Positions 11,234 through 22,930 of a stretch of 64,000 nt of DNA are shown in pieces. Numbering within the stretch: the first letter of the stretch is position 1; each line of letters starts with the position of its first letter. Source of the stretch: Hymenopellis radicata (taxonomy: Eukaryota > Basidiomycota > Agaricomycetes > Agaricales > Physalacriaceae). The DNA is taken from assembly GCA_015501595.1 (NCBI GenBank), contig JADNRX010000045.1:124001-188000 (forward strand), read 5' to 3'. The notes below the pieces were generated by a model. The model was not told the origin of the DNA. It was given only the letters and a program-made list of their open reading frames with translations, and did no database searches. A program made the translations under genes and the position numbers.

Positions 11234-11722
11234 TCTGGGTTGATGAAGGGAGGAAACAAGCCGTTGAACTCAAGTTGTGATCGTCTCCTCGCCCGGACCG
11301 GTCCGCCCCAAGTGTGGCGACATGGCACGATAGAGGAGTCTTTCATGACTCTTGGTGCGATAAAACGTGTTAAAAGCGTATATGAGTACAGTTCAGAAGG
11401 AGGGTAAAACGCCTGAAGTTGTCTTGTTGATGATTTCCGATGACATCTTCGCATCCTAAACACAACTGTAATGAGGATATTGGAAGGGAAGAGAGGAAAG
11501 GCCTACAAGAAATGTGAAATTTTGCATCAGAGCGTGATAGGGCAGGTTCAACATCCAGTATGACACCCAGTTTCTGCAGCTGTGAAACTTGAGGCTTTCA
11601 TCATAATGAGGGGTTACAACTGAGTATATAAAGTACAACGAAGCAAATACACGACAAAGATATAGGACAAAGATATAGGACAGGGGGTATCATAGATGAA
11701 TAGCATACATATGGGCGTTATA
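11234..11722. other. Intergenic
   Basis: Presumed promoter of the serine-rich gene. A 14-bp unit (GACAAAGATATAGG) is tandemly repeated near 11655-11680. No exon chain seen. Confidence 0.5.
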
Positions 11723-11950
11723 GTGTGTAAAAATTACTTTTTGCGTACTTCTCACTTTTTTGGGGTCAACTTCGGAAAAGTATGAGTGAACTTCGAGAAC
11801 TTAGGAGTGAACTTCGGACAAGTAAAAGTGAACTTTTGGAGTGAGATCGAACTTGACAAAGTATGAGCGAACTTCTCAAAGTTGGCTCGAACTCTAGGAA
11901 GTTGACCTTGACTTGCGGAAGTTGGATAGAACTTCAAGGAACAAGCTCTG
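11723..11950 (+). repeat. Dispersed repeat with GAACTTC/AAGTT units, copy 1
   Basis: After a TGTGTAAAAATT start (about 11729) come many short, irregular repeats of GTGAACTTC, GAACTT and AAGTTG in both orientations, spaced about 15-25 bp apart. A second copy with the same start and the same unit lies in the opposite orientation at about 20905-21135. This is a MITE-like or satellite-derived family; no terminal duplication could be fixed. Confidence 0.55.
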
Positions 11951-12042
11951 CCACTACGCGCCGCACCACCGCCGCCGCCACCTGCTTATTTAGGATATAT
12001 GCGCTGCTTAGGTAAACCCAGAAAGTACCTCTATAAGTATCA

Positions 12043-13620
12043 CTATGGAATACAAGCATGTAGCTGGATAACAGCCTTGCAATATACATCTATTCCCCAG
12101 TTCCCATCCTCCTCCTCAAAATCAAAGTCTCCCAGTGCCTCTCTCGCCGCTTCAAAGTCGGCATCCTCAGCAAGTGCGGAGTTCGGGTCATTGGGGTCGA
12201 CGGACGGCATCGCCAGCCCCTCATTCTCTGCACCCTCCACCCCGTAGAATCCATCAACACATGTTACATCGTCTCCGACGTCGCCTGTCCAGACACCCTG
12301 ATTCATCAACTTCTGTCAGCTGAGGGCGTACATAGCAACCGGTGTCTGATTCCCTGCCGTGCGGATTTTATGATGGTTCCAGGCATGCTTGGCGCGGTTG
12401 AGAGCGGCTTGGATGCGTGGCTGGAAAACAAGGAAGAGACAAATGCAATGAATGGCATTCTCCTTCTCCCATAAGCCGTTTTGCTCCAAGTACAGAAAGA
12501 TCTGTCGAAAAGCTTCGAGTGCGTCCTTCTGTATGTCGACCCAAAGTCTTTCGATTCGGACATTGTGTGTTGACCTGCAAAAGGACTCAGAAATGGTCAG
12601 AAGTATGAGAAACATTCTTCGTACCGGCCGCGTAAATACGCGCGATGAGCTTCCCCCCAATGCCGAACCATTGCTTTCTCTATCTTGTTGTTCTCTGGCC
12701 CGAAATCTCCGCGGACGCGACTAGGCCAGCCGAACAGCGCCACCCCAGCCAGGAAGCATTGGAAAACGGTGTCGGAGCGCTTGTTCGAACGACACTCCAT
12801 GTAGATGATGAGACGTGAGTGTCCGTCCACGCAGCCATGTACCCAAAAGCCCCAATGCTTCAACTTCTCGTGTCCATCCTGATGCCAAAGCGCATTTGAA
12901 CCGCGTACTTTGTATACACGTCTTTTCGTTACACAAGCCCATCTACAATTTTTTTAGGTGGCTTCACTAGGCTTGGAGAACAGAGGAATACCTTGTAAGG
13001 ACTCCCATTGCATCGACGCGTCGCAGGCTATCTTGCACTCTTGTACGAGGCAGGTGAATCCCAAGAACCTCGAGATGCCCTTGGATGATGGCCGAGCCGA
13101 CAAAGGGATGCTGAATGGAGATCTTTGCAACCTCCTCATCCAGGTCGTTGTCCGAAATCTCGGTGAAGGCCTTGCGTGCCGTCGAGAGACCTGCTCTGCC
13201 CAAATGGTTGTACAGAGTCCTTCTCTCTACGCCGAACGCGTCAGCGATACCCTCCCACGTACTTCCCAGGTCATGAAGCAGGCAAACCCTCTCTAGGTCT
13301 ATGTCGTAACGAGGACGACCAGGGCGTCCCGTGTAGACGCGAGGAAGACTGTCAGAGGTAGGTGGGGGTGGTGTCTCTAAAAAGGCATCTAGCTGGCGAA
13401 GGAAGGAATCGAGATGATCTAGCATGATTTCGAGTTGCACCTCGGTGAGAAAAGGGTCGTCCAGGCCATGTAAAATGGTGCGAGTCGCGTACAGCTGATG
13501 TGCGAGCCGTTCCACCGTTGCGACTTCTGCATTTGGGAATGAGGAGATGGCGAAACGAGCCTCATTGCAGAGAGTATGGCAGTGGGAGAGAAATCGTTGG
13601 ACATTGTCTCTGTCCGCCAT
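12043..13620 (-). pseudogene. Integrase-core (DDE) domain protein with premature stop
   Basis: Three exons, 12992-13620, 12625-12942 and 12043-12574, are joined by introns of 49 and 50 nt with good GT..AG ends. The N-terminus is helical; around residues 110-150, RYDIDLERVCLLHDLG and VERRTLYNHLGRAGLS fit a DNA-binding helix-turn-helix. The catalytic core follows: GFWVHGCVDGHSRLIIY (first Asp), WPSRVRGDFGPEN (second Asp) and STHNVRIERLWVD (Glu). This is the integrase-like DDE protein common in Agaricomycete genomes and presumably transposon-derived. After MYALS an in-frame TGA (12316-12318) interrupts the frame, which otherwise continues about 90 residues in an acidic tail to 12043. The codon context AGC TGA CAG suggests CGA to TGA. 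The catalytic part would still be translated, so activity loss is not certain. Confidence 0.75.
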
Positions 13621-14130
13621 GGAAGGTGACGGTCAAGAGCAAGTCATGGAGGGCGGACCCGATTAGAAATGCATCGAATCAAAGTCAGTAGAATCAGAAA
13701 GCCAATAATATTGTTCTACTGCTACCTACTTGGTTATTGTTATATACAAGTACAAGTGATTAAACATGACATGTAACGAATGGAATGAGAGAGAGTAAAG
13801 AGAATAAAGAGCTACCGATCATACAGATTCATGCTGCTGAAGCAGGTGCGGGGAAAATTGCCGGGTCTCTTGAGCACAGTCTAAGCAGGCACTGACAAGA
13901 TTCACGGCGTAAACAGTATGGGGAGATTGTGGTGATGGACGTATGCTACAAACAACAGACACGGTGCGCCTAGTATAGTCCCCGCGGGAGGAGGCATATC
14001 CAATAAATGACGTTCGCGACGGCATGAGTCTTGGCCTCAACGCAAGTGTGATGTATTTGGATCACTAGAAACGACCATCAGAAGAGCACATCTTAAAACA
14101 GCGAACGAAATGCTCACGCGAAAAGAATGT
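13621..14130. other. Intergenic
   Basis: Upstream region of the integrase-like gene. Purine-rich GAGAGAGTAAAGAG stretch near 13785-13805; otherwise featureless. Confidence 0.45.
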
Positions 14131-14345
14131 ACTAAATTCCAGGCACGCTACTGGCATTCATGAGGGAGGCATCTTGGCCGGACGACCTGAAGCCGTTGCA
14201 TGCGGTGGCCAGTATCGTTGACGTCCAGTCCGTGTACTTGCCCTTCAAGTTGAGGTCGTTGCAGGGCTTGAGGGCTGGCGTGGCGAACACGGTGGTGCTG
14301 AGGAGTGCAATGGAAGTATGTGGGTGTCGGGGAGAGCATCAACGA
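14131..14345 (-). pseudogene. Possible CVNH-like secreted protein fragment
   Basis: On the minus strand one frame reads TSIALLSTTVFATPA, resembling the end of a signal peptide. It continues KPCNDLNLKGKYTDWTSTIL and then ATACNGFRSSGQDASLMNAS. The pattern of two Cys, the ordered TILATAC step and the following SL resemble the first half of small secreted cyanovirin-N homology proteins of fungi. I cannot find an in-frame start codon or the second half, so this would be a fragment or a gene with unresolved splicing. Confidence 0.25.
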
Positions 14346-15026
14346 TTGGATTCTCCGTGAATCAAAGATGGGAGAGGTAGGAGGAGGAAAGACAGTGGCC
14401 TTGGTGCAGTTTTTCAGTGTCCGAGTTGAAAAGCGGAAGACACAACATACCTTGTGGTTGCCCGGCCCTTCTGCGGTCAGATATCCTTACACCGGAAAGC
14501 AGCCGTACAAGTGTTGCACCGCACGACTGAGTATGCCTTTGACACGCGTTTGAATATCTGCAGCAAGCGTCAGGCAATGAGTATGTAGAACAGAGCGAAG
14601 ACCCGCACTTCATACTCAGCGTAGAGGACGATCGTTTGTTCCCTTTCCCGCGTTGAACCCGTCGGCGTCATTGAGCATGTCGTTGTTGTTGAGCCTATTG
14701 CCGTCGTGGAATTCAACATCGAATTGAGAGTAAAAGATCAAAAGGCGTGTTGAGAAATGAGGGCGGAAGACAAGTCGCCGAGATCCCACCCAAAAAGGTA
14801 AGTCTAGTGTAGCACAACAATAGAAAACATACCGACTCTTTGTTTACTCAAACGACGATGGTCACGCGTTGAACGCGACCGCGTTTGTATAAAGAGGTGA
14901 GCCCGTTTTGTTTACTCCCTCAGACCGCCTGTAAGCACTGACAGCAGACGCTGCCAGTGTTAGGCTGACTTACCCGGGGGGTCTCAAGGGAAAGCCTATG
15001 CGAGTACCAAAGCAGTTCACTGCCAT

Positions 15027-15376
15027 CATGGGCGATTATTACTTGGGCCCGTCTGTGCTGTCGCCGTCGTGTAACTCGGAGAAACATCCAAAGGCTAATT
15101 GTGAGTTACTCTGTCCCCTCCCCTGCCCGTGTTTTATTACTGTTTATGTCGCTTTCAGATCTACGCCCCACGACCGCGGCAAGGCGTACTGTGCGACCTC
15201 TCTCCCTTCAACACGACGATCTGGACGCCATTCCCTGCGACATCGCCCAGCACCCCTTGACATCGACCGGCATCTCGGGCACGCCGTTATCCTCCTTGAG
15301 TCTACCCCCACCATCAGAGACGTCGCGTGTCTCATGTCGACGACCGAAAACCCAATGTACCGGTGCCTATCTGTGA
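15027..15376 (+). CDS. Weak candidate two-exon gene
   Basis: A frame MGDYYLGPSVLSPSCNSEKH is followed by an intron-like stretch of 58 nt, about 15102-15159 (GTGAGT..TTTCAG, pyrimidine-rich), after which a frame continues YLRPTTAARRTVRPLS and QHDDLDAIPCDIAQHPL to a stop at 15376. The splice sites are good, but the protein is not recognisable and the length is only about 95-100 residues. Confidence 0.25.
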
Positions 15377-15635
15377 CAAGAGATAGAGGAGCAGGCCGTG
15401 CTGACTGGACCGCGTTCGCCGCCCTCTATCCCTCTCGTCAACGCTAGGCCGTCGTGCCTCGGTGCGGGTTGGTCAAAGAAACAGGTCACTCTCGGATTGC
15501 GGTTGGTGAGTTCTTCTGGTTGAGGGCGAGTCATTCTCTGGTTCTTATATTTCAGGCTAGATTGACACGAGAAGTAGGATTTACACCTCGACGCACAAGA
15601 AGTACATACTTGTATGAGATACAGCAATATAGCGA

Positions 15636-18600
15636 CTACTTTCCGAAGGCCTTGTTGATAGCACAATTCAGTTGCGTGCATATTTCGACCCAAATGCTAC
15701 CCGACGAACGGTTCTTGTCGGGGTGGTATGCCTGCGAAAAGAGTCAGTGGTGGAAGGTGTAAACAGGTGAAGGTACAAACCCGTTGAGCAGCAAAGTATT
15801 GCTTTTTGTCCTCTGTGTCCAGAATTGCGGCTTCGAATCGCTGACGCGTCGCCATATCTGGATGGGGGAATTCCACTCGAAGGCGACGAAGGAGGCTATC
15901 CTTGGACATCGTTAGTGAATAGCCCGGGTCGGAGCACCCGGTCCGGGTCACGGATGCGGGTGTGTCAGGGTCCGGGTAGGGGTCTCGGTCTGAGAACCCG
16001 CTGTAACCCGCGTCACCCTTTCTTACCCGTGCCGTGGTCCAGTTGGACCACATGTCATAATGCAATTAGAGTACATATATTTTTCTGAAATTTATGAAAT
16101 TTATTTGGGCTCAAACGAGCCCAAAGTCGTCGAGAAACGACGTGGCGGAAGAATTTCTGTGATCGCCGAGCTGGCCGATCGTGCCGGCAGTTGCCGGATA
16201 ACGATCGATCCGCTCAGATTTCGGTGCTCTCTCTCTTACCACCACAGCACGACCTTCGTGTCGTGCTCGTCGGCCCCAGAAAATTTTCTGGGGCTTCTCT
16301 GATTTGTTTTCTTACTTCTGCTTCGCTCTCCTCGCGCGGCTTGGCTTTGCGCCAGCTGCTACGCCCTCGGATACGTTCCGGGGTGATATCTTGCGCTTGT
16401 CTTCGCGACGGCGCCCTTTTGGACTGCGTAAGCCCTCAGGACGAGGCCGCCTTGCTCTTGGACATCGAGCGCCGACTTGACTTGGCTCAGCGCCCGCCGC
16501 TTCGCCCTCGGATACACTCCGGGGCGTATTCTGGTGTTCGTCTTCACGACGACACCGAATTGACGAGGACGCGCAACGCGTAAGCCCTCACAAGCGAGGC
16601 AGCACTTATACTGGATTATGATCTCTGTTTCTTTCCTTTTGGTAGTGCGATCCGAGACGCGTAAGCCCTCTCCACGAGGCCGCATGCACGTTTTTTCGCG
16701 TTCGGCTCTCTCGACGAGCAACGCGCACGCGTAAGCCTCCCCCGGCGGAGCTGCAGGCCTCCTGAACGATGGCGACGATCTGAACTTGATGCTGGATTAG
16801 CCCCCGCGCATCATATTCTTCCCCAGCAACAAGCGAGGAGCGGGACTTCTGGGCTGGAAGGCGTCGCGGACGCATCCAGCCCTGGAAAGTGTGTATCTTT
16901 TCCCTTCTTGTTATCTCTTCTAACTGCATTTTAGTCTTGTCACTCCCGACCATCATCGTCTCGCTCCCATTCACCGTCTTGCTCCCACCCGCTGTCTTCT
17001 TGCTCCCACCCGCTGTCTTCTTGCTCCCACACCTCCACCCATCATCATGCCCAGCTGACTGTCCCTGTGCCATTGCCCAGGGATGCTCACTGAGCATGAA
17101 CTATGGGAGGTAATGGTATATGGGTAGTGCTGGCGGGCGATTTGAGTCCGACCCGAGATGGTTTCGGCGGGTAACCCGCACCCGCGCCACGGAACAGGGT
17201 AAGTCGAGGGTACGGGTAGGGGTCCAGAACGAAATACCCGCGGGCAACCCGCGCTACTCACTAGACATCGTGGCTCCTGCCAATTCGCGCGCATTCCGAA
17301 GTCTTGGGTCGACACTCGACGCTACGTTCCGAGATGGTTTAGATGGTTCGGGTTCGGGACTTGACGCTGTGGAATCCTTCCATGCTGTTGATCTCTGGCT
17401 GGAAAGGTCTTCGTGGGTTGTTAGTGGGAAGGCGAAGATGATCAACAGGAAGGTCCTACTCGGGATGATCAGCATCAAGTACCAGTCGGAATCGGGCGCG
17501 TCTGGCATCGCAGGCAGCTCTGAATATCAATGAGTCAAGAAACAGGAATGTGCTGATTAGTTGGTACCATCATCAAAGTCTAGTCCTAGCTCGTCGGGAT
17601 GAAATGTCCCAGTCCTGGAGAAAGGTCAACACGAGAAATGTTTGTCGGAGCATGGCATACGCACGCGGGATTCTTTCTCATCTGAGACCAAATCAGCGCC
17701 CCATAAAAGGAGATGCAATGCAACGGCTTACCTTTCTTCCTCGAGTGGTGGCGGGCTCAGGATGATTGTAATGCTGGGGATGCTGACAGTTTGGTTAGTG
17801 ACTTGAACACCAAGTGAAGACAAGAAACTTACGGAAAGGTAATGAAAAACCTTCCATGCCACCGCTCCGGCAAGCCTCCCCAAGAGACCCAAGCAAGCTT
17901 CATAGTGTTGATGGACAGGACGATCCTCAACATAACAACGGAGAATGTCGAGTAGCTTGTCGAGACCATGTTCGCCGCGGGCGACTATATCGATAGTCAT
18001 TTTTGAGGGATCTTCGGCACTGCCCAAGAAGCTTTCAAGATGTGTGCGGATGATGGGGACAGTACTCGTGTCGTCTCCAAGAAGTTCGTGCAGTCGAATG
18101 AGACCAATATGAATTGGGGATAATGCTGCAGCGGTGGGCTTACAATGTAAATCAGAAAGAGGGTAGCTGTCATTAACTGAAGACACTTACCAGATCCTTC
18201 ACGAGCGGGGCGTTGATAGCAATCACCGCCTCAAGCTGACGGAAACCCGTCTTGGGATACCAAAACCGTCGCTCTACATTTTCAAAGAAAAAGTTCATCA
18301 GGTTTACGATAACCTGAGCGAAGTCCGAGAGCTCCGCATGGCGGTCGCGCAGGTCCTGAAACTCGGCATCTGATAAACCGGGCATTTCAGAGATCCTCTT
18401 AATCACCCCGAACATCAAGAGCAATGCCTCCAGAACCAGAGTCATGCCCATAGGTCCCAGCCGGAACTTCTCCACAAACAGAGGACTGTCCTCGGGCTTG
18501 AGGTCGCGTCCAAGCGGGGCGCGTTCAAGCCACGCATGAAGCTCGGTGAAGGGAGCAAAGGCTAGGATGTGTGAGAAGTCGTTACAGAGCATCTTGCAGG

Positions 18601-20344
18601 CAAGGCTGGCGCTCATGTCAGGCAGCTTCAGGAGCTCAAGAAGACTCTGAGCACGGCCGGTCTGGACAGGAAATGCATCGTACGGGGCAGAAAGTGCGAG
18701 TGTGGTCTGCATATGGGTAAAAATACAGTTTGAAGTTACCCTTGTCAGTCAATGAAAGGCTTACCCATCGGCCGCTGGCTCCATATCCACTGGAAAATCC
18801 TCGGGGTTCGTCTGCTGGGAAACCAGTATTTAGAACACATCGCTCAGCCTGTCGTAGAGACTTTGGGAATTCAAGGACCTGACGAAGAAGGGATGAGGGG
18901 TTGATGCATTGAAATATGGGGGAGGACCAAGACCTTATGATCGACGGTAGGCATCGGTACGCGTAGATCATCTGTATCATCCATCGCTTGTTCGTCCGCC
19001 TTGGAGTCAGTCTTTCGGCGCTTGGCCTCCTTGTCGTCTTCGTCGGTCGATGAACGCTATACAACCCTTTCATAAATGTGCCTCACGAAAATGAGTCGGT
19101 GACGCACCTTGGCAGATTTCGGTCCTTTGGAGATCTTGGGCTCAACGAAACTGAGGTCATCGTGCTCCTTCGCGAGACAGATATAGATAGGAAAGACAAC
19201 TTCGTTGCGCTTCATTCCGGAAGGATGATACTTAGAATTGACCCTAGAGAAACGATGTGAGTTTCTGAGAGTCACAATTGCACTCTACGTACTCTTCGTG
19301 TTGGACGTATGAGCCTGCTTCTTGTTGAACCCATTCATTCGGTTCAAGGATAGATGGTGCACCGCGACCATTGCCGACAACCTTCATAAAATGAAACAGA
19401 TCTGCCGGCGATGTAGATGACTTCGGAAGAACATCCTTAAACGTGGTATAAATTTTGCTAGCCAGGTCGACACCAGTACAGTCCTCTGTAACATCAATAG
19501 ATCGAACATATTTGTTCTCTTTGAGAGCCTCATATCTAAAAAAAAAAGAAGGTAAGTAATATTACTAACGGATGAAGAAATAGGGAGACAACATACTTGG
19601 CACGAGAAGGACGGCGTGCTTCATTTTGATGTGCGCTCCGGGTCTCTGGGATGAGGATAACGGTGGCGGACTTGAGCTCGGCCTTGACTTTTTTGGGCTT
19701 TCTAGACACTGGCGGGCGTCCTGTCCGGTTGGCAAGTTTTTCGACAGTGATCTGAAAGGAGATATTTGTTAGATACGAAGAGCTGAAAAGCGTCAGGACA
19801 TCTTACCTTCTCGGAAGGATCAAACTTCGGAACGCTAATGCCTTGAGCTGCAGCAGCTTTGTTCCGATTTTCTTCACGCGTCTTGGAGAAGTCTCTAAAT
19901 GGCGCGTCGGTCTTCTTCCAGCTGCCAGAGCTATGGAAGGCGGGTATTTCAGGCTTGTCCGACTCCTTGGTCTTGTCGCGCACACTGAAGAGAGTATCTG
20001 CCGTGGCTCCTCCGAAGGCAGTGGAATCGACTTTATTGGTCCAGATTTGACTCTTCGGCTGGTTCAACTTGGTGAGGACGCCAAATCTATATGGGATGAA
20101 GCGAACATACCTTTGTCGCTGAGTCAGCAGGGGCAGCAGCCTGAAGAGAGGGTGATTATGTAAGTGATGAAAGAGAACATATCCCTCGAAATCATACCTG
20201 CACATGCATGCCTATAGGGTCGCCACATACGCCACAGTTATCAGTGGGCTTGTAGTCCGCCTCATCCTTGCCATCGACAAATGCAATACCACATGCACAG
20301 TCCTTTTTGTTGCACTTTCCAAGAGTCTTCGAGTTGAAAGGCAT
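15636..20344 (-). CDS. Large protein with J-like C-terminus, disrupted by hAT element
   Basis: A long minus-strand exon chain starts at ATG 20342-20344. Exon 1 (20198-20344) encodes a Cys-rich unit, CNKKDCACGIAFVDGKDE and NCGVCGDPIGMHVQ, probably zinc-binding. Then come a basic Lys-rich region (RKPKKVKAELK), KRNEVVFPIYICLAKE, a putative NLS (KEAKRRK) and helical segments over about 17.85-18.7 kb (LLELLKLPDMSASLACKMLC; ERRFWYPKTGF). At the 3' end are ELGLDFDDELPAM, RNARELAGATMSKDSLLRRL and MATRQRFEAAILDTEDKK. The chain ends YFAAQR/AYHPDKN, where HPDKN is the J-domain hallmark, with a stop at 15636-15638. I infer about 900 residues. A 1351-bp hAT element sits inside the last long exon (15913-17263). 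One extra T in a T5 run (17845-17849) also breaks the frame. Function unknown; HPD suggests Hsp70 contact. The 3' third could instead be a separate gene. Confidence 0.65.
15913..17263. mobile_element. Non-autonomous hAT-type element, 1351 bp
   Basis: The terminal inverted repeats are TAGTGAATAGCCCGGGTCGG on the left and, read on the other strand, TAGTGAGTAGCGCGGGTTGC on the right, each followed by GGGT/ACCC-rich subterminal sequence. The flanking 8-bp direct repeat GACATCGT is perfect (15905-15912 and 17264-17271). These are hAT hallmarks. Inside are four copies of a unit carrying GCGTAAGCC near 16425, 16575, 16655 and 16730, two of them within a longer duplicated block (16360-16450 and 16500-16590), plus a CTTGCTCCCACCCGCTGTCT tandem array (about 16975-17030). 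No transposase frame is present. Confidence 0.92.
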
Positions 20345-20904
20345 GATTTTGTTGTCGAGAGGAAATAAGCAGGGGTGGCTGGCGGGAGGATGGGATGAGA
20401 TACTACAACCCAAGGCTCAGCAGGTCCTTGGTATTTATATGATTCTGAGATATGGGAGCCAAATAGGGTGCACAAAGCATCTGACGGGCGGTGTTTTGAC
20501 AAATGTACTGCCTGGCAATGCTCTGAGTGACGAGTCCAATCCTCTGCTGTCAGGCGTTGATGTCTATTCTGAGCTAGAGTATCCTTCTCAGTCCTTTCCA
20601 GACTTCTGTAAGTTTGATTCCATCAGACTTGTGAAGTAAGGCTACACTGATTTCCAGATGGTGCTAACCCGAACTCCAGGAGCTTGCAGCACCCAAATAC
20701 TTATTTACTGTGCAAATAAACTGTATTGTGAGAATGAGAATAATAGTGTGCATTGTCCCATTGTGTGCGAACGACAGCTGTTGGTCTATAGAGCTTGCTC
20801 GGGACGCACTCGGGCCATGCTCGGGCACGCCACAGATGACGACCAGTCACATCACTATGTGACAGGGTCTATCCCGCCTGATGGCGGGGCGGTGGAGCTC
20901 CGCT
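20345..20904. other. Upstream region of the large J-like gene
   Basis: No exon chain seen. This is presumably the promoter and 5' UTR of the large minus-strand gene that starts at 20344. Confidence 0.4.
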
Positions 20905-21135
20905 TTAAGGCAGTCGTCAAACTTTCCTAAGGTTAACCTCAACTTCGGGAGTTTGCAGAGAACTTTTGGAGTAGACTGCCAACTTTCAAAGTTGAACTTG
21001 AACTTTCAAAGTTGAAGCTGAACTCGAAAAAAGTTGGATTCGAACTTCAGAACCCGGGATTCAAACTTTCAAAAGTTCGCTGAACTAGGTCCCATTTGGC
21101 CCTAGTTAAAAGTTGAATTTTTACACAAAATAACC
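20905..21135 (-). repeat. Dispersed repeat with GAACTTC/AAGTT units, copy 2
   Basis: Read on the minus strand from about 21130, this begins TGTGTAAAAATT, as copy 1 does at 11.7 kb. It then runs through irregular AACTTTCAAAGTT palindromic units and GAACTT motifs for about 200 bp. Confidence 0.55.
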
Positions 21136-21241
21136 ACCAAACATACATAACCAGGTATTTCATAGTCCAAGAGGGTAAATAGCTCGACGGTGAAAGGCAC
21201 AAAGAAATAAAGACTGCGACAAACAAGTCACGATACCCGGT

Positions 21242-21944
21242 CTACTCAGCATCCATAGCCAAGTCGAGCTCGCTGTTCAGATCAGCAAGGACGTTGGTCT
21301 CGAAACATTCGAAGAGATAAGGCGCGACTTCCGCAATCTAAATACCACATATGAATGAGAACAATGACGATAATTTCAAAGAGAGGAAAGGAACGCACGT
21401 CGTATGAACTGAAAAAGTCGTTCGCAAGGTCAACTCCATCGAAAGCGGTGCTCATTTCATCAGCGTAGCCGTAGTGGTGCACATGGTAGTCTTGGTGGAT
21501 AGGTTGCACTGGGGCTAAGACGCTCGGCGCGCGCGCGGTGAAGGTGAAAGGAGCGGTATGATTGACTGGCATCACGGATGCGTTCAACGTGCGTCTCGTC
21601 TCATGCGATGTCTGCACCTGCGGCTCTCCCTTCGGGTGTGGCTTGAACTCGTAATCAGGATACATCTCCTTGTGCAAAGCCTTTGCAGCATCTTGAGCAT
21701 CGAAGAACGGAGCACGCTCTTCTGCTGCGAGAGTTTGCCAAACTGCGCCCCCTCCGGTAGGCGACAGTTTATAATACTTTTTGAAGATCACAAACGCGTT
21801 CGCTGGGCGAGAAATTTTGCCGTGGACGGAATCGACCTGCGTGTCCTTCATGTACTGCAGGATGAAATCCTCCGGAGACATGGCTGGAGCAGGAGCGAAA
21901 GGCGTTGTAGCCGCGGACTGGGAAACTGTCGTGGAAGAGGCCAT
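21242..21944 (-). CDS. HMG-box protein with a shortened box
   Basis: Two exons, 21399-21944 and 21242-21337, flank a 61-nt GTGCGT..TTTAG intron and give about 213 residues. After a Ser/Ala/Pro-rich N-terminus (MASSTTVSQSAATTPFAPAP) comes an HMG-box: KISRPANAFVIFKKYYKLSP, then WQTLAAEERAPFFDAQDAAK and HKEMYPDYEFKP. The RPxNAFxxF start and the YPDYxFxP end match fungal MATA_HMG-type boxes. About 12-15 residues that usually sit between helices 1 and 2 are missing, so DNA binding may be altered. The C-terminus is acidic (FDGVDLANDFFSSYD; LNSELDLAMDAE), typical of an activation domain. It probably acts as a nuclear transcription factor. An in-frame ATG at 21989 would add 15 residues. Confidence 0.75.
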
Positions 21945-21989
21945 GGAAGTTTCGTTGTGGTTGGGGAATATCTGTAGAGGGAGTGGCAA

Positions 21990-22930
21990 CGTTCGTGGTT
22001 GTGAGTGAGAGCCAAAGGTGTCGACAAAGGCCTACAATAAATGAGTTTTGGTCACGTGCGCGTCCACCCAGCTGAATTACTTGGTTTGGACTGTCCACAG
22101 GCATTGCCCGGAACAATGGATGGACGGAGCACTGTGTTAGGGTTATTTGGCACCATTGATAATATAACGGAAGTCACAGCGCCATCCACGGGGACAATGC
22201 ACTGCCATCAAGAGGTGTGGCGTTGCAGAAACGAGAACACGCTGAAAGAATCAAAGCTAGGACACGGGTTTATGCCAGACATACGTTCGGAAAAAAAATT
22301 GTGCAATAGAGAGAGGTTAATCGCGCCAGGCGTGAATTTGGACAAGCCGTCTATTCAGACGTACACAGACCAAAGAAGGGATACATATAGAAATCTCGGC
22401 GAAAAGTTATGAGGAGCCGTCGCAATCAGTAAGGGTCAATCTTGGCGACTAGACCAAGCGAGCAGTCCTTCGTATATCGGGATTAAATCAAGTGTGTGCA
22501 TCGCCTAACTTGCAAGACACGTTCATTTCTGGTGTCAGTTGGGAGTCGACTCGGCCGTTAGCTCCAAGGAAAGATGACTTGAGAGAGCTTTCAGCAAAGC
22601 TGCTAGATAGTATTGAGGGACAGCGTTACACAGATTCATGGTAGACACTGCATAGTGTAAGTTCTTCAGCATCAGCCAGAGGTGGCCCAGGATGTCCGCG
22701 AGAATTCTTCGATGAGCTACGGGCTTCACCCAGAGTGCAAGATGAGATATACACGTAGCGCCGAGCGCGAGACATAGCAGGGTTAAAGGTTTTCAAAAAA
22801 ACAAAGGCTATTCTGCCTGAAAGTCAGTGATAACGCGCCCTCGACGTGTTCAAATGGAATAGCGCTCATCGTACATACCGTACTTCGGGCTTTCTACCCT
22901 TCAACTTGGCGAAAGCTGGGTGGGTACAGA
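21990..22930. other. Intergenic
   Basis: Presumed upstream region of the HMG-box gene followed by about 800 bp in which no exon chain is convincing. Confidence 0.45.

Follow-up and report, generated by a model that had tools for sequence, protein, structure and literature searches.

A non-autonomous hAT element in a coding exon of Hymenopellis radicata, probably nested within a two-gene integrase transposon

Described relatives of the two elements

In the mushroom Schizophyllum commune, the hAT-type element scooter is said to disrupt coding genes and to leave 8-bp duplications behind. It reportedly hits host genes and causes phenotypes, whereas the hAT element described here, located in a 64,000-nucleotide stretch of Hymenopellis radicata DNA (referred to as the window; contig C796 in this analysis, from a genome of 75.5 Mb in 1405 contigs), hits a gene that lies within another transposon. 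Active hAT families are also described for Marasmius oreades, among them the autonomous MarorhAT-10 and the non-autonomous MarorhAT-4, -11 and -12 (PMC9674265, in the parts considered here). Both that fungus and the window represent cases of mushroom hATs in which short, transposase-less members share their terminal repeats with a transposase-bearing member; in M. oreades, however, the short members measure 597–631 bp and new insertions arise in culture, whereas in the window a single fixed copy of 1351 bp is known from its sequence (PMC9674265, same parts).

For the larger element that surrounds the insertion, the closest described systems are the IS3EU transposons, which in rust fungi make 6-bp duplications, have ends of the type TAYGG..CCRTA and bring alpha-kinase and TET/JBP genes with them (PMC12730594), which have been reported from Ganoderma as well (PMC8955403), and whose complete families are stated to end in TA..TA without exception (PMC10045372; all three sources as far as the excerpts drawn on here extend). 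The larger transposon resembles them in its 6-bp duplications, its TAYGG-type end, its IS3/IS481-related transposase and the possession of an extra gene (PMC12730594, PMC10045372, same excerpts), and differs in the nature of that gene, which encodes a J-like protein and stands in place of the alpha-kinase and TET/JBP genes known from the rust families (PMC12730594). Instead of TA..TA termini, the seven copies examined have TATGG at one end and TTTGG at the other, right-hand one. Because of the TTTGG end, we do not claim IS3EU membership for this transposon, only that it appears to work like one. In the portions of the cited literature used here we did not find such a two-gene integrase transposon described, and the narrow search for rva_4/PF24764 is no proof of its absence.

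The hAT insertion and its uninterrupted counterparts

Exact copies of the 8-bp target duplication GACATCGT at positions 15905–15912 and 17264–17271 flank an element of 1351 bp (15913–17263), which has inserted into exon 15 of a gene on the minus strand. The outermost letters of the element are TAGTGAATAG and TAGTGAGTAG, and its ends, TAGTGAATAGCCCGGGTCG and, inverted, TAGTGAGTAGCGCGGGTTG, form short terminal inverted repeats in which 16 of the first 19 bases match. The length of the duplication is that of the hAT superfamily. Within the element, the longest stop-to-stop frames amount to 164 and 161 aa, and no match to the hAT dimerisation domain (PF05699) was found on contig C796. The stretch 15913–17263 is hence a non-autonomous hAT element; that a hAT has inserted into a coding exon here had already been read in the first-pass annotation of the window.

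The element is not a chance pattern, as relatives of it recur in the genome. With 40 of 551 candidates scored, so that copy numbers are lower bounds, there are at least four full-length relatives at 95–97% identity (contigs C1051, C508, C639 and C1192) and at least two that span element positions 236–1351 at 97%; further relatives have roughly the first 500–680 bases and the last 100–145 in common with it. The end pattern, with two mismatches allowed, gave 155 + 141 matches in the genome versus 4 + 1 for the reversed control. Both ends could be recognised at 16 of the 20 hAT loci examined, the window's own included, and 15 of these 16 carry exact 8-bp duplications that are all different, with one mismatch at L020; at the other four loci (L006, L007, L011 and L019) one end only was recognisable. 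PF05699 itself has 70 matches in the genome, and the same end type, with up to three mismatches allowed, occurs in the flank of ten of the 20 PF05699 loci examined and at none of 20 loci fetched for other reasons (L022–L024, L026–L042). Since the element is without a dimerisation domain of its own and its ends are common to PF05699 loci, the hAT transposase would have been supplied from elsewhere.

The interrupted gene (15636–20344, minus strand) was modelled by comparison with a sister gene on contig C596 and comprises 16 exons that encode a cysteine-rich N-terminus and a J-like C-terminus. In our gene model, exon 3 begins without an AG; this start is doubtful, and in the public model P0002 it is set some codons further upstream. 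Exon 15 is divided into an upstream part (17264–17408), which ends with ACGATGTC, and a downstream part (15781–15912), which starts with ACGATGTC; exon 16 (15636–15731) encodes AYHPDKN...KAFGK and a stop. The upstream piece, translated from the minus strand, ends with ARELAGATMSSE and a stop codon formed by bases 8–10 of the hAT element, and the downstream piece starts with TMSKDSLLRRLRV and runs on to AYHPDKN...KAFGK and its stop. After removal of the element and of one 8-mer, both pieces share one frame, and the ATG of the downstream piece falls within the duplication; both of these statements had been made before and can be read directly from the letters. Because of the in-frame stop within the element, the predicted product is truncated, and compared with the sister gene (865 aa in the model) the last 72 residues are replaced by two codons and a stop.

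Accordingly truncated is the public model of the window gene, P0002 (BDZ89DRAFT_1131140, 800 aa), which ends with ...ATMSSE at the stop inside the hAT element, so that the true C-terminus has indeed been hidden from automatic annotation. The further expectation that the two pieces would be called as separate genes was not borne out, as only the upstream piece was found annotated and the downstream piece of 74 aa matched no protein in a search that admits only proteins of about 41–129 aa. Three public homologues span the insertion point (P0001, P0003 and P0004), and all of them read through it; in the 60 residues past the site, 35 residues of P0003 and 30 of P0004 are identical to P0001. A profile search for wider homologues returned only P0001, P0002 and P0004. 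As a side observation, P0002 keeps a 51-nt intron (17409–17459) in frame that is removed in P0001, the model of the sister gene.

On contigs C596 and C1235, which are 99.7% identical to each other over 9158 bases, the sister genes run through the site uninterrupted and with a single 8-mer, as was confirmed letter by letter, and on both contigs the matches of the left and right flanks have exactly 8 bases in common. Flank searches across the site returned the window, C596 and C1235, the other rows being C1080 and short pieces. Contig C1080, which we take as the other haplotype, is 97.7% identical to the window from 18983 rightwards and stops at 18983, before the site. That the empty site can be read, as had been proposed, is thus borne out by the sister copies with one 8-mer each; what is read there is a sister transposon copy in the same assembly and not an allele.

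The surrounding transposon and the two genes inside it

The gene lies within a block of 9432 bp including the hAT element (11710–21141), a larger DNA transposon whose ends, TATGGGCGTTAT... and, inverted, TTTGGTGGTTAT..., match at 21 of 26 positions and are flanked by the 6-bp duplication CATACA on the left (11704–11709) and on the right (21142–21147). The block is repeated on C596 and C1235 with different flanks, and its end pattern, with three mismatches allowed, occurs at 33 genome sites compared with none for the reversed control. Exact 6-bp duplications, each of them different, are present in five of the seven two-ended copies examined (CATACA in the window, AGAGGA on C1235, CGATTC on C993, CATTCG on C484 and CTTGTT on C1273), with two right-hand ends tried for each of C90 and C993; matching duplications were not found at C596 (82002–89981) and C90 (10872–13576). 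That these two copies are without them, although the closely similar copies on C1235 and C993 have them, may reflect rearrangement or assembly error. The two-ended relatives on C90, C993, C484 and C1273 are only 2.7–2.95 kb long, and in the parts examined of those on C1273 and C993 no match to the interrupted gene was found. An HMG box gene (Pfam, E 2e-6; 21282–22031, minus strand) lies immediately to the right of the larger transposon.

Downstream of the interrupted gene and on the same strand, the transposon contains a DDE integrase gene (12052–13632, minus strand), identified by Pfam matches of two rva_4 pieces at 12624–12917 and 12316–12579. The integrase piece of the window alone reaches an E-value of 0.034 to the IS481 model. 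In Flammulina velutipes, a member of the same family (Physalacriaceae), the gene and the integrase are annotated as one protein of 1353 aa (P0004), the integrase part of which matches the IS481 model at E 1.6e-12 and the IS3 model at E 2.8e-5. Neither score reaches the curated cut-off; we read the matches as those of a DDE transposase related to IS3/IS481. The public name of this protein, 'Ethylene-and jasmonate-responsive plant defensin', is a misfit with its rva_4 content. Close to the C-terminus of the integrase, the window gene contains an in-frame stop, and on C596 and C1235 the reading frame of the integrase copies is broken, so that each of the three seems incapable of moving by itself.

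The pairing of the two genes extends beyond the window. A search with the gene-type protein, in which 50 of 91 candidates were scored and copy numbers are consequently lower bounds, matched at least 18 contigs, and at 14 of these 18 loci an rva_4 match lies downstream on the same strand at less than 10 kb. No integrase was found at the other four (C1237, C545, C445 and C1080); apart from C545, these loci head for the end of their contig, which is reached in 2.4 kb or less. From the side of the integrase, 27 of 41 loci show no such gene among the candidates scored. In this count, which includes haplotype pairs, the 41 loci result from merging integrase pieces by hand, and for C796 the lower limit came from the gene model.

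In the comparison of the window with C596, dN/dS is 0.105 over the 770 codons before the insertion site and 0.055 over the 73 codons after it, the latter value being based on 11 differences only. With a ratio of about 0.1, the interrupted gene has evolved under constraint. The frame downstream of the element is still open, which would fit a recent insertion without dating it. The C-terminus contains an HPD motif (AYHPDKN), and the Pfam DnaJ model scored the gene product at 12.3 bits (E 0.19), under its cut-off of 27.8, so that the test for a J-domain was negative; the mean AlphaFold pLDDT of the product is 43.9. Scans for Rfam families and tRNAs across the window found nothing.

Synonymous divergence from C596 amounts to 0.90 upstream and to about 0.21 in the last exons, both before and after the insertion, and DNA identity to C596 and C1235 is 90–94% in the integrase part and 75–77% in most of the rest. 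These steps suggest that segments have been exchanged between transposon copies. As to the order of events, the nesting implies that the larger transposon came first and the hAT element second. Contig C1080 shares a 20-base flank and the end of the larger transposon with the window, which means that the larger transposon would predate the split of the haplotypes.

Origin of the interrupted gene and its meaning

From our point of view, the locus is most probably a hAT element nested in the second gene of a two-gene transposon with an IS3/IS481-like integrase. A DNA transposon of this kind, which makes 6-bp duplications, inserted first. The hAT element, which is non-autonomous and was presumably mobilised by a hAT transposase encoded elsewhere, later entered exon 15 of the second gene, where it formed the 8-bp duplication and exchanged the last 72 residues (in the numbering of the sister gene) for the short terminus described above. 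The first-pass annotation had seen here a DNA transposon that splits a gene. The split of the exon stands, but the gene sits, beside an integrase gene, in a larger transposon; such a position points to a nested transposon and offers no evidence of a split host gene.

One could imagine that the gene nevertheless stems from a family of host genes, either captured by transposons or simply lying among them, and that the hAT element did split a host gene. Its 16 exons, the constraint on it and the gene of this type at C545, where no integrase was found, would agree with such an origin, which we nonetheless consider unlikely, as the gene is enclosed by inverted ends and a 6-bp duplication, and as the gene–integrase order is repeated at 14 of 18 loci and again in Flammulina. 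Less probable still is that the element is spliced out as an intron, which would yield a nearly full protein with 28–29 extra residues. A donor GTGAGT (17261, at the element end) and the acceptor GTTCTCAG before 15989 do join in frame, their splice-site score falls between the lowest and the highest for sites of the gene itself, and a score this high was reached by only 4 of 400 dinucleotide shuffles. In addition, the maize Ds1 elements, like the element in the window hATs in exons with possible splice sites, are reported to be spliced from exons (reference titles cited in PMC3260210). The putative intron in the window differs, however, in that its splicing is predicted from sequence and that it would be far longer than the introns of the gene, namely 1272 nt versus 46–70 nt for 30 introns in two models (the 70-nt intron rests on a doubtful acceptor, which is also one of the 29 used for scoring), and the public model P0002 does not splice the element either. 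The idea that an element copy was wrongly joined into the contig during assembly finds some footing in the 1405 contigs and in the two copies of the larger transposon without matching duplications; it is scarcely credible given the exact 8-bp duplication at precise ends, both here and in other copies, and the single 8-mer in the sister genes.

With regard to the nested transposon, the second gene presumably serves the larger element, and the truncated product presumably does not work. Rather tentatively, and with more doubt than confidence, we propose that the gene may encode a conserved partner protein that a mushroom family of two-gene integrase transposons needs in order to move, in which case the hAT element, by removing the J-like end, would have contributed to inactivating its carrier.

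Overall, the nested hAT is well preserved and, taken for itself, ordinary; the interest of the locus is its carrier, a two-gene integrase transposon with a second gene that is constrained. The locus represents a clean nested insertion, the empty site of which is readable from sister copies within one assembly, and its analysis corrects the public gene model P0002. It further ties annotated 'hypothetical' proteins in the Physalacriaceae to an integrase transposon and by this tie marks them as mobile-element genes. As such, it provides a testable candidate for a partner protein of an IS3/IS481-like eukaryotic transposon.
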